Shown: piece after piece, positions 10,610-23,997 of the stretch
Layout: every line of letters starts with the position of its first letter
Position numbering within the stretch: the stretch's first letter is position 1
Origin: a virus
Length of the DNA stretch: 54,316 bases
IMG/VR virus record: IMGVR_UViG_3300029258_005835
Span: 1 to 54,316 of that record
Direction: 5' to 3' (one strand)
Translations under genes and position numbers: made by a program
The notes under the pieces: generated by a model
The model's input: only the letters and a program-made list of their open reading frames with translations
What the model was told of the DNA's origin: nothing
The model's database searches: none

Positions 10610-11239
10610 GTGGAGATTCTGGTACAGGAGCCTATCGACCTCAGTCAGGTCGCCGACCTCGCCGCTGTCGGCATAGAACGCACCACACCGACGCCGCGGG
10701 ACGGCAGCAAGTGGCACGTCACCAGCCTCCTGCGCTCCGGCCACCGGATAGCGAAGGGCGACGTGGGGTACGAGGACAATCGCGCCTTCCCCGATGACAT
10801 CTTGGCGATCATGGCCCTTGGCCGGATATGGGAGACGACGGTTGACTGTTTCCTGACGGACTACGCCGACTGTCGGGGTGGTCTCTACGTGTCGGACGTA
10901 GAATCGGTCACGGACGGAATCATAGCCAGCCTGGACGGCCTCATGTGGCTTCCTGACATGGGCTGGATGGTAGCCGAGACCAAGCTGCGTTACACCTTGA
11001 ACGAGAACATACCGTCCGACCACATCCAGCAGGTTCGGGCGTATTGCCACTGTGCTGACACCAATCTGGTGTGCTACGTGAGTGGCCACATTTCAACGGC
11101 CCCGCCGACCGTGCGTGCCCGTCTGCGGATACTCCGGCTGACGCGGCAGAGCATCGAGGAGTGCTGGCAGGGGATCATCAATACGCGGGATTATCTGGTC
11201 GCGCAAGGGTGCGGCCCGAATGACGGGAGGGGAGAGTAA
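10610..11239 (+). CDS. Cas4/RecB-like PD-(D/E)xK nuclease, 209 aa
   Basis: GTG 10610 follows GAGGGGAG and is preferred to the upstream in-frame ATG at 10583. Nuclease core: SLDGLMW (D109), MVAETKLRYT (E123, K125) and, after a helix, HIQQVRAYC matching the Q-x3-Y motif of RecB-family nucleases. Cys residues follow (CHCADTNLVC), though the four-Cys Fe-S arrangement of true Cas4 is not evident. Such phage nucleases act with RecA/Sak4-type ATPases and annealing proteins in replication-linked recombination; those genes are within 2 kb. No CRISPR array is present. Confidence 0.75.
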   Translation: MEILVQEPIDLSQVADLAAVGIERTTPTPRDGSKWHVTSLLRSGHRIAKGDVGYEDNRAFPDDILAIMALGRIWETTVDCFLTDYADCRGGLYVSDVESVTDGIIASLDGLMWLPDMGWMVAETKLRYTLNENIPSDHIQQVRAYCHCADTNLVCYVSGHISTAPPTVRARLRILRLTRQSIEECWQGIINTRDYLVAQGCGPNDGRGE

Positions 11240-17880: not shown

Positions 17881-20604
17881 ATGCCGTACCCGCACGGTCA
17901 ACGTTACCACAGAACTCCGCCGCCTCTCCCCGACCCGTCCACCCTGCCCTTCCCCGGGAACCTGATACGGTTGTGCACGGACTGCGGCCTGCGAGCCAAG
18001 TGCAAAGCTCCCGTCCCTGGCGACGGGGCTGTTCCTGCCGAGGTCGCACTTGTCGGTGAAGGGCCGGGGCGCCAAGAGGATGAGTGGGGGTACAAACCGT
18101 TCGTAGGTCAGGCAGGGCAGTACCTCAACTCCCTGCTGTTCCAAGTCGGCTTACCCCGTGAATCCGTCTACGCCACGAACGTCGTCCATTGTCACCCTCC
18201 GGGAAACCGCACCCCGAAGCCCGACGAGGTGCGAGCGTGTGCTCACTGGCTGGACCTAGAGCTATCCCTCGTCCAGCCCCGTATTATCATGGCCCTCGGA
18301 GCAACCGCTATCGCTCGTTTCCTCGGTAACAACGCGGGGACGGTCGAGCACCTCCACGGTAAACCCATTGAGAAGGACGGCGTGATTATCCTTCCCGCCT
18401 ACCATCCCGCCTTCGCCCTCCATGACACCAGCAAGACGCGCCAAGTGAGCGAGGACTTCCAAGTCCTCCGTGGATTGGTCAAGGGCGCAGACTGGCGGAG
18501 CTACCACGTAGTCGACGAGTACCCGAACCCCGACTACCGCGTAGCCGACACACCCGCCAAGCTCCGGCAGATGCGGGACGAGATAAGCGACAGCGGCGAG
18601 TTCGCCGTCGATACCGAGCAGTGCCGAGGCAAGCTGTGGAGTGTCCAGATTTCAGCGCGACCGGGGACCGCGTGGTTCATCCCGATCCCCGACGATTTCC
18701 GAGGGAGGTACGATCTCACTGACCTGCCGGGGACGGCTATCGTCCATTACTGGCTCCACGATATTCAGTACGTGGTGCTGCGGGAGGATGATTTCATAGA
18801 CACGATGGTGGAGGCGTATCTTCTTCACCTCCCGCAGGGCCTGAAGGAACTAGCGTCGCGCCTATGTGGCGTCCAAATGAAGACCTACCGCGAGGTCGTC
18901 CGTCCCGGCCAGCAGGAACTGTCTCTGGAGTACCTGCTGCGTGCGTCCGGTCGCGAGTGGCCCGACCCGCCGCTGATCGAGGAGACCAAGTGGAACAACA
19001 AGAAGGGCGAACTGGTCACGCGGAACAAGAAGCCGTGGCATATCTCCCGCAAGATCAACGGCATCATAAACGACTTTTCCGCTGACGAGAACACCGACCT
19101 GTGGGATCGGTGGCGGAACATCCCCGCCGAGGAGCGTGCCGTGGTCGAGGACGTGCTCTCTCTCATGCCCGAGTCGTCGCTGGCCGACATCGACTTCGAC
19201 CAAGCGGTGCAGTACAGCGCGCGTGACCCCGACGTCACGCTCAGGGTCCACCACAAAATGCGGAAGATGATCGCCGACCTCGACCTCAACTTCGTGGAGT
19301 ACACGGACCTCGGCATCCTCCCGATGGTGGACAGCATGATGGCGAACGGGATGGCCGTGGATATCGAGCACTGCCGTCGCCTGTCCGAGGACTACGACGT
19401 CCGCATGAGGGTGCAGGCCGCCGAGCTTGCCGGAATGGTCGGCCATGCGTTCAACCCGAACAGTTCGCAGCAGGTCGCGGCGGTTATCTACGGTGAACTC
19501 GGGTTCAAGCCGACCAAGACCACAGCGACGGGGCTGATCTCCACCGACGATGCTGAACTGAAGAAAACGGGGCATCCGGTCGCCGAGGGGGTTATTCGCT
19601 ACCGTGGCCTGATGAAGCTGAAAAGCACCTACGCGGACAACATGATCCGGTCGGCCCATCCTGACGAGAGCGGCACCCCGAGGATGCACACGGTCATCAA
19701 GACGACGCGAGTGGAGACGGGGCGGCTCTCCTCGTCCAAGAATGACGAGGGGGAAGGTGCCAACCTCCAGAACATCCCGACACGCAACAAGGAGTCCAAG
19801 GCGATCAAGAACGGGTTTATCGCGCCTCCGGGCTGGCTGCTGGCTGAGTTGGACTACGGTCAGATCGAAATGCGCACCCAAGCTCACCTCGCGCAATGCA
19901 AGGGGCTGATAGAGTTGTTCAACAGAGGCGGCGACCCTCATACCGAGACCGCCGCACGCCTGTTCGGGGTCTCGCTCGATCAGGCCAAGCTGACCAAGTA
20001 CCGCTACCCGACCAAGCGTGCCGGATTCGGGATCATCTACCTGATCGGTCCACACGGGCTGTCCACGCAGATCAACGAGTACATCGCTGATCTCGCGATG
20101 GACGGTGAGTCCGTGGATATCGAGCCGTGGGACGAGTTGACCTGCGAGAAGTTCATCGCCGAGTACTATCGTCTCTACCCCGAGATTCGCAGCTACCAGT
20201 ACGCGCAGGTGGCTCACGCGCGGCGGTACGGGTACGTGAAAGACCTGTTCGGGAGGATCAGGTATATCCCCGAGGTTCACTGCCCGATACGGGCTATCAA
20301 AGAGGCCGGTGCTCGGCAGGCTGCGAACATGCCCGTGACCGCTACAGCCCAAGAAATTATCAAAGCAGCTATGGGCGAACTATGGAGGAGTCTGCCGCAG
20401 ACGGAGTGGGCGGACAGTCTGCGATGGGAAATGCAAGTCCACGACAGTTTGATAGTAGAAGTAGTCGAGGACGAGGAGGTTCACAAGCCGTGTCTGCGGT
20501 GGGTAGAAGACAACATGACGAACGTGGTGAGTCTGTTGGTACCCGTGGTGGTGGATACCAAGGTGGGAAAGCGGTGGGGGAGTCTGGAGAAGGTGGTGTT
20601 ATGA
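17881..20604 (+). CDS. Uracil-DNA glycosylase / family A DNA polymerase fusion, 907 aa
   Basis: Replicative or repair polymerase with an N-terminal family-4-type uracil-DNA glycosylase (about residues 20-200): CTDCGLRAKCKAP cysteines for the Fe-S cluster, VGEGPGRQEDEWG, NVVHCHPPGNRTP and AYHPAFAL. A 3'-5' proofreading domain follows, with EFAVDTEQ (motif I), HYWLHDIQYV (motif II) and YSARDPDVT (motif III), so proofreading residues look intact. The polymerase domain has motif A AELDYGQIEMR (about 655), motif B YPTKRAGFGIIYLIG (about 708) and motif C MQVHDSLIVEV (about 850). Motif C reads HDS where cellular enzymes have HDE, a change I recall as common in phages. The fusion suggests uracil checking coupled to synthesis. 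Confidence 0.92.
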   Translation: MPYPHGQRYHRTPPPLPDPSTLPFPGNLIRLCTDCGLRAKCKAPVPGDGAVPAEVALVGEGPGRQEDEWGYKPFVGQAGQYLNSLLFQVGLPRESVYATNVVHCHPPGNRTPKPDEVRACAHWLDLELSLVQPRIIMALGATAIARFLGNNAGTVEHLHGKPIEKDGVIILPAYHPAFALHDTSKTRQVSEDFQVLRGLVKGADWRSYHVVDEYPNPDYRVADTPAKLRQMRDEISDSGEFAVDTEQCRGKLWSVQISARPGTAWFIPIPDDFRGRYDLTDLPGTAIVHYWLHDIQYVVLREDDFIDTMVEAYLLHLPQGLKELASRLCGVQMKTYREVVRPGQQELSLEYLLRASGREWPDPPLIEETKWNNKKGELVTRNKKPWHISRKINGIINDFSADENTDLWDRWRNIPAEERAVVEDVLSLMPESSLADIDFDQAVQYSARDPDVTLRVHHKMRKMIADLDLNFVEYTDLGILPMVDSMMANGMAVDIEHCRRLSEDYDVRMRVQAAELAGMVGHAFNPNSSQQVAAVIYGELGFKPTKTTATGLISTDDAELKKTGHPVAEGVIRYRGLMKLKSTYADNMIRSAHPDESGTPRMHTVIKTTRVETGRLSSSKNDEGEGANLQNIPTRNKESKAIKNGFIAPPGWLLAELDYGQIEMRTQAHLAQCKGLIELFNRGGDPHTETAARLFGVSLDQAKLTKYRYPTKRAGFGIIYLIGPHGLSTQINEYIADLAMDGESVDIEPWDELTCEKFIAEYYRLYPEIRSYQYAQVAHARRYGYVKDLFGRIRYIPEVHCPIRAIKEAGARQAANMPVTATAQEIIKAAMGELWRSLPQTEWADSLRWEMQVHDSLIVEVVEDEEVHKPCLRWVEDNMTNVVSLLVPVVVDTKVGKRWGSLEKVVL

Positions 20605-21473: not shown

Positions 21474-21638
21474 GAGGAGTGTTGGTACGCTCTTGACAAG
21501 ATTGTATGGATAGGTGTATAGTGACTACGAGGAGTGTTGGTACGCTCTTGACAAGATTGTATGGATAGGTGTATAGTGACTACGAGGGGTGTTGGTACGC
21601 TCTTGACAAGATTGTATGGATAGGTGTATAGTGACTAC
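21474..21638 (+). promoter_or_regulatory. Three tandem 55-bp repeats, each a sigma-70 promoter
   Basis: Three near-identical 55-bp units (21474-21528, 21529-21583, 21584-21638) differing by one base. Each holds TTGACA (21493, 21548, 21603), an 18-nt spacer and TATAGT (21517, 21572, 21627). Together they give a strong triple promoter reading right into the 21831 gene train, and they abut the TnpB remnant exactly at the end of the third unit. Confidence 0.85.
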
Positions 21639-21639
21639 T

Positions 21640-21800
21640 CTGTCAGCTAAAGCAGACAGCTTCTGCCGGAACGCACGGCCTACTGGCCCACGTTGGCTCG
21701 GCAAGGCTCAGTCCGAGCCTCAGAATATTCAAGGCAGCGTTGACATCGCGGTCAAGCACCAACCCGCAGGAAGGACAGGAGTGAACACGGTCAGCGTGCG
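21640..21800 (-). pseudogene. Remnant of IS200/IS605 TnpB: C-terminal zinc finger plus right end
   Basis: On the minus strand, HSCPSCGLVLDRDVNAALNI and the following LRLG are the last half of the TnpB/OrfB zinc finger plus its hallmark DRDVNAALNIL. About 30 residues follow, to a TGA lying inside a hairpin (21640-21659, CTGTC/GACAG with a TTTA loop) preceded by GAAGC. GAAGC-stem-TTTAG-stem is the usual right end of such elements and the 3' part of the omega RNA. The RuvC nuclease and the left end are gone, and flanking genes run the other way. The left break is placed near 21800 and is approximate. The omega RNA scaffold could still be intact. Confidence 0.75.
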
Positions 21801-21830
21801 TGGATGCAGGGTAAGCAGGAGGCACAAGCA

Positions 21831-21980
21831 ATGGCAGACGTGAGGTGTCCGGCGGGTCACACAAAGACGTGGAAAAAGGGCCGTGTGCCAACGCGCCAAG
21901 GGCCGAAGACGCGGTACATCTGCTCCGTGTGTGGGAGGACGTTCTACGCGCCTGCCGACCGGAAGAAAGTCAGGAGGTAG
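21831..21980 (+). CDS. Stand-alone zinc-ribbon protein, 49 aa
   Basis: ATG 21831 after CAGGAGGCACAAGCA. Motifs CPAGHTKTWKKG and YICSVCGRTFYAP form a transposase-type (IS1 InsA-like) zinc ribbon, with basic ends. It is paralogous in layout to the small proteins at 23815, 34159 and 43474. First gene downstream of the triple promoter. Confidence 0.7.
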   Translation: MADVRCPAGHTKTWKKGRVPTRQGPKTRYICSVCGRTFYAPADRKKVRR

Positions 21981-23814: not shown

Positions 23815-23997
23815 ATGAGAAAGCAAACCAAACCCCGATGCCCGCACTGCAAGCGGACGATCCCCGTCACTCGCCACAGCATCCACAGGCGTCCAGACGG
23901 GACGACCTACTCCCGCTGGATGTGCCGCGACTGCGGGGCCACGTTCCTCCAGCGCGCGGACAGGCGGCGCACGGGGAACTACAGGAGCAAGTACTAG
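23815..23997 (+). CDS. Stand-alone zinc-ribbon protein, 60 aa
   Basis: ATG after GCAGGAGGTATGGAGCG. KPRCPHCKRTIPVTR and RWMCRDCGATFLQRA build one four-Cys zinc ribbon, with strongly basic flanks. It is the first gene after the consensus promoter, so it may regulate the envelope operon. It is of the same layout as the 21831 and 43474 proteins. Confidence 0.7.
   Translation: MRKQTKPRCPHCKRTIPVTRHSIHRRPDGTTYSRWMCRDCGATFLQRADRRRTGNYRSKY

Follow-up and report, generated by a model that had tools for sequence, protein, structure and literature searches.

A degraded TnpB transposon end whose tip probably became part of a phage promoter that was then triplicated

The stretch of DNA analysed here (the window), 54,316 bases long, is a linear virus record from IMG/VR. 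On its minus strand, positions 21631-21792 (about 162 nt) derive from a TnpB element of the IS200/IS605 superfamily and represent its right end, with the 3' end of tnpB, a terminal hairpin and a TCAC terminus. The coding part matches columns 36-60 of PF07282 (21724-21798, E 5.6e-9), which correspond to the latter half of the TnpB zinc finger, and this C-terminal stub runs into the right end as TnpB coding sequences do in this superfamily. The subterminal hairpin with its GAAGC foot and the fixed TCAC terminus are common to the relatives L084-L098 and others. The initial annotation had described a TnpB zinc-finger end without its nuclease and, behind it, an undamaged right end with GAAGC foot and hairpin on the minus strand, and both descriptions are borne out. 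When the whole contig was searched, the stub was the sole trace of TnpB; neither another TnpB-like gene nor a TldR was found. A left end of the form CCAT-N13-GGGGA, sought in the window, is absent, and since the left end is lost we regard the feature as a remnant and not as an element. The ATGG start codon of the gene at 21831 was considered as a candidate left end and dropped, as an AGGAGG serves this start and the bases next to it are unlike a left end. An Rfam search of the region gave a single match at chance level, DNA comparison with the phage collection gave none, and comparison with plasmids returned two short matches to haloarchaeal records.

The closest relative found is L095, an intact element of a Candidatus Sericytochromatia with a 383-residue reading frame, to which the remnant is 75% identical over 165 nt. 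The 91-nt right ends of the two align without gaps, have alike folds and finish in the same TCAC terminus, and the C-termini of their TnpB proteins are related. In contrast to L095, the window copy keeps only about 162 nt, has neither a left end nor a CCAT flank, and has lost nearly all of tnpB.

The right ends of the relatives, in viral contigs as well as in genome loci, agree up to TCAC and diverge beyond it. The pattern GTCTGCTTTAGCTGACAGAGTNGTCAC is present in seven other viral contigs, a slightly looser pattern in eight genome loci, and TCAC also follows the hairpin in many further TnpB loci. In genome G044 one right end occurs in three copies with three different flanks; like the right ends of many related elements, each copy runs through ...GAGTNGTCAC. 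Because TCAC is common to the relatives while their flanks differ, sequence comparison sets the last transposon base at 21631 and the junction at 21631/21630. The junction had originally been drawn at 21638/21640, which is wrong by the evidence of the relatives, as they place it eight bases further. TCAC and the preceding GTAG are transposon sequence and not guide, and the guide begins at 21630 with TATACACC, not with TCACTATACACC.

Positions 21631-21721 of the minus strand (91 nt) form an omega-RNA-like scaffold according to fold, covariation and model match. It is made up of stem 1 (21721-21703; 7 bp, loop GGACT, GGACU in RNA), a compound middle stem (21702-21665), the right-end hairpin (21659-21640) and a strand AGTC (21636-21633), which as the RNA tip AGUC can pair with GACU of the loop in a pseudoknot. 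From a MAFFT alignment of 19 sequences, RNAalifold retrieved the right-end hairpin alone, as the length of the middle stem varies; a gap-free set of four sequences was used instead, which solved this problem. In that set 98.4% of cells are paired and 13 pairs have changed on both sides, and these pairing values were matched by none of 500 shuffles. Loop and tip also covary across relatives (GACG/CGTC, GACA/TGTC, GATTA/TAATC and GGCTG/CAGTC). A model built without the window, mostly a sequence model with seven pairs, matches the window scaffold with an E-value of 9e-21. As modelled, the remnant is structurally still an omega-RNA scaffold with its stems and tip-to-loop pseudoknot; adding 14 upstream bases leads to a different predicted fold. 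Comparison of the fold with known omega RNAs, which the initial annotation had called for, thus revealed omega-RNA-like structure, and the lack of structure that would have spoken against its reading does not apply. The compensatory changes could reflect selection to keep the scaffold, and they may predate the loss of tnpB.

Among characterised RNAs, a close counterpart is the omega RNA (reRNA) of ISDra2 from Deinococcus radiodurans, which shares with the window a pseudoknot in which the tip pairs with the loop of stem 1, the middle stem, a last hairpin with a UUUA loop and a guide that directly follows the transposon terminus (PMC10097598, PMC8612924). The window scaffold, which is predicted from sequence, differs from it in length (91 against 116 nt) and in target (CCAT against TTGAT). 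Copies that lack TnpB also exist within the family. In G044, a 412-bp element (L127, 7179-7594) has CCAT, left end, scaffold, right-end hairpin and TCAC with no long reading frame, and judged by its sequence it is a non-autonomous stand-alone omega-RNA element. In G002 (L096 315-405, and L097), a 91-nt copy of the right end only, starting from the first stem of the scaffold, is 99% identical to an intact element of the same genome and has CCATAA directly to its left, so that it resembles a fragment the size of the scaffold that was inserted at the target motif in its own right. Phage contigs L084 and L086 likewise carry right ends without TnpB. The G044 and G002 copies and the window remnant all have scaffold and TCAC terminus without tnpB, but the former keep CCAT at their left, whereas the window remnant has no such boundary and retains more of tnpB.

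On the plus strand, the remnant meets three tandem 55-bp direct repeats (21474-21528, 21529-21583 and 21584-21638), of which copies 1 and 2 are identical and copy 3 shows 98% identity, with one change. Copies 1 and 2, like copy 3, finish in the eight bases GTGACTAC, which in copy 3 are the tip of the transposon; by simple arithmetic, such an eight-base match has odds of about 1 in 65,000 of arising by chance. As the 55-bp unit contains the 8-nt tip of the transposon, the triplication must be later than the insertion. The sister contig L082 is identical but stops within the repeats, and is therefore no independent witness of copy number.

Each repeat contains a predicted sigma-70-type promoter (a class defined by TTGACA, a spacing of 16-18 nt and a TATAAT-like box), with 11 of 12 positions matching the consensus in all three copies. 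They lie at 21493-21522, 21548-21577 and 21603-21632, each reading TTGACA-18-TATAGT, and three such sites in the region compare with 0.3 expected in its shuffles. In copy 3 the -10 box TATA|GT spans the junction, TATA (21627-21630) being phage DNA and GT (21631-21632) the transposon tip. Further promoters of the same kind lie at other places in the window and also in related phages; one of them, near 11151 of phage L104, reads TATAATGG, which is the sequence that an insertion beside CCAT would divide into TATA and ATGG. All three strong predicted promoters read toward a small zinc-ribbon-like phage gene at 21831-21980 (plus strand), which is preceded by AGGAGG at 21817-21822 and has homologues in the related phages L104 and L105. 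The gene block of the window encodes two similar small zinc-ribbon-like proteins, at 21831-21980 and 23815-23997, and the first of them also has two matches in L104.

The would-be guide, TATACACCTATCCATACAATC (21610-21630, minus strand), matches all three repeats at 21 of 21 positions, with identical matches at 21575 and 21520, and each match follows GTAGTCAC. The original claim that a guide read from the junction matches three promoter copies therefore holds for the match; its start is 21630 and not the position first given. The meaning of this match depends on the target-adjacent motif (TAM). The left ends of the relatives have GGGGAC and a hairpin in common. L014 and L027 are the same element at two sites and share sequence only from CCAT inward, and four copies in G044 with unrelated left flanks all read CCAT, 13 nt, GGGGACTG. 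CCAT lies 13-14 nt upstream in all 14 distinct left-end hairpins, which were picked without regard to CCAT, and under a looser hairpin rule there are 17 sites with CCAT, the four G044 copies included. In characterised elements the TAM is the insertion target (PMC8612924, PMC10278001). Consequently, from sequence comparison and by analogy, CCAT is the expected cognate TAM of this element family; a search for full relatives that would define this motif had been proposed at the outset and was in this way productive. As a side observation, the CCAT insertions of L095, L097, L085 and L014 each lie immediately upstream of a divergent gene; the gene starts with ATGG, the motif's complement, and CCAT itself may account for a preference for start codons.

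At all three promoter matches the TAM position is occupied by GTAGTCAC, the transposon's own tip, in place of CCAT, which makes RNA-guided recognition of the three promoters as double-stranded DNA unlikely. Two caveats apply to this reading of the copies as non-targets: TnpB cleaves single-stranded DNA without a TAM (PMC8612924), and AmaTnpB, a different TnpB, has TCAC as its TAM (PMC10278001). No CCAT-flanked site resembling the guide was found when the contig was searched. Moreover, since the tandem duplication took the tip along, the match to three copies is no evidence of aim.

We consider it quite probable that the locus is not an RNA-guided switch but the degraded end of an ordinary transposon whose tip now completes a phage promoter, both having been triplicated together. 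In this reading, a TnpB element from the IS200/IS605 superfamily with CCAT-adjacent insertion sites would have hit a phage promoter in its -10 region. As CCAT reads ATGG on the opposite strand, we infer that this region originally read TATA|ATGG, which contains the consensus TATAAT. After the insertion the promoter was copied to three, tip included. The gene at 21831 and those to its right would now be driven by the block, the remnant forming an untranslated leader, and the scaffold would be a structurally intact but unexpressed leftover. Were the scaffold loaded into a TnpB acting in trans, the complex would meet GTAGTCAC and not CCAT, and the three promoters would be spared as double-stranded DNA.

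Expression of the remnant bears on the alternatives. A scan for promoters on the minus strand near the remnant found none. In one system that has been studied, tnpB mRNA is the source of the omega RNA (PMC10278001), and in the window the part of the element upstream of the scaffold is gone. With no minus-strand promoter near the remnant and three strong promoters facing the other way, the role of antisense regulator once suggested for its RNA finds no support. The remnant could also matter on the plus strand as leader RNA, either through a 5' hairpin and a long leader with an effect on stability or translation, or as an antisense by which omega RNAs from intact elements are silenced. Scaffold and guide would both have their complement in the transcripts of promoters 1 and 2, and transcription from promoter 3 is predicted to start at the complement of the right-end hairpin; the stability of the leader as a whole is, however, not unusual (z -0.35), and we hold such a function to be rather unlikely.

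The scaffold could, in principle, also act as a stand-alone omega RNA in trans, given the TnpB-less omega-RNA copies in the family. A TnpB of the host or of a co-infecting element would then cut related phages at CCAT followed by TATACACCTATCC and spare the contig itself. The intact, covarying and pseudoknotted scaffold is consistent with this, as are the TnpB-less copies beside intact ones in G002 and G044 and the TnpB-less right ends of L084 and L086. The missing minus-strand promoter and the different fold favoured by a longer stretch of the remnant argue against it, as does the search for a sibling phage carrying the empty site. The promoter 28-mer was not found in the viral contigs, and a 17-mer expected in an empty site gave five hits, all in unrelated sequence. 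Related phages (61-66% polymerase identity) share genes with the window and have neither a matching promoter nor an insertion, and three related phage records contain no such right end. In the search for an empty site of the L095 element, the flanking gene was located in two relatives and the opposite flank was not. Thus, neither an empty site nor a sibling phage with the uninterrupted promoter emerged from these searches, and action in trans appears very unlikely. Highly improbable, too, is the related idea that the phage keeps a stand-alone omega RNA of transposon origin, with a guide that spells its own interrupted and copied promoter, so that a TnpB in trans would cut siblings with CCAT-TATACACC while the own copies would be immune because the transposon tip replaces the TAM.

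Phages are known to carry TldR, an RNA-guided repressor of promoters, and a broken tldR locus has been proposed as a source of guide RNA in trans (PMC13418256). The guide RNAs of prophage TldR systems resemble the window in that a guide derived from the right end matches a promoter and is carried by a phage (PMC13418256). Unlike them, the window has no TldR gene, its guide finds its match in the adjoining flank rather than in a distant promoter, and the TAM is missing; where a TldR repressor would have a nuclease-dead TnpB-like protein beside the guide, the stub stands alone in the contig. It is extremely improbable that the guide brings a TnpB supplied in trans, as initially suggested, or a nuclease-dead relative, to the three promoters in the phage's own genome, which would then be repressed or cut, since the 21/21 matches and the TldR precedents are set against the tip in place of CCAT at every copy and a contig without TnpB or TldR.

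As a side observation, a gene in the window (17881-20604, plus strand) encodes a protein of 907 residues in which uracil-DNA glycosylase, 3'-5' exonuclease and family A DNA polymerase are fused. In the relative of this fusion in L104 (6001-9684), about 280 residues are inserted in frame close to the C-terminus of the polymerase; as the insertion has matches to LAGLIDADG homing endonucleases, it is, judging by these matches, probably an intein.

In summary, a guide that matches a promoter can arise without targeting, by insertion in a promoter and subsequent tandem duplication that includes the tip, and the duplicated tip also marks each copy as a non-target. This suggests a check for supposed orphan omega RNAs, in which relatives first fix the terminus and the TAM is sought afterwards. 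The analysis also adds CCAT as the inferred target motif of TnpB elements with a TCAC end and a GGGGAC left end, and a case in which a transposon end gives the last two bases of a -10 box. For tests of stand-alone omega RNAs, the TnpB-less copies of G002 and G044, with intact ones beside them, are better suited. If the reading in which the own copies are immune were true, a single insertion would make a guide that tells self from non-self.
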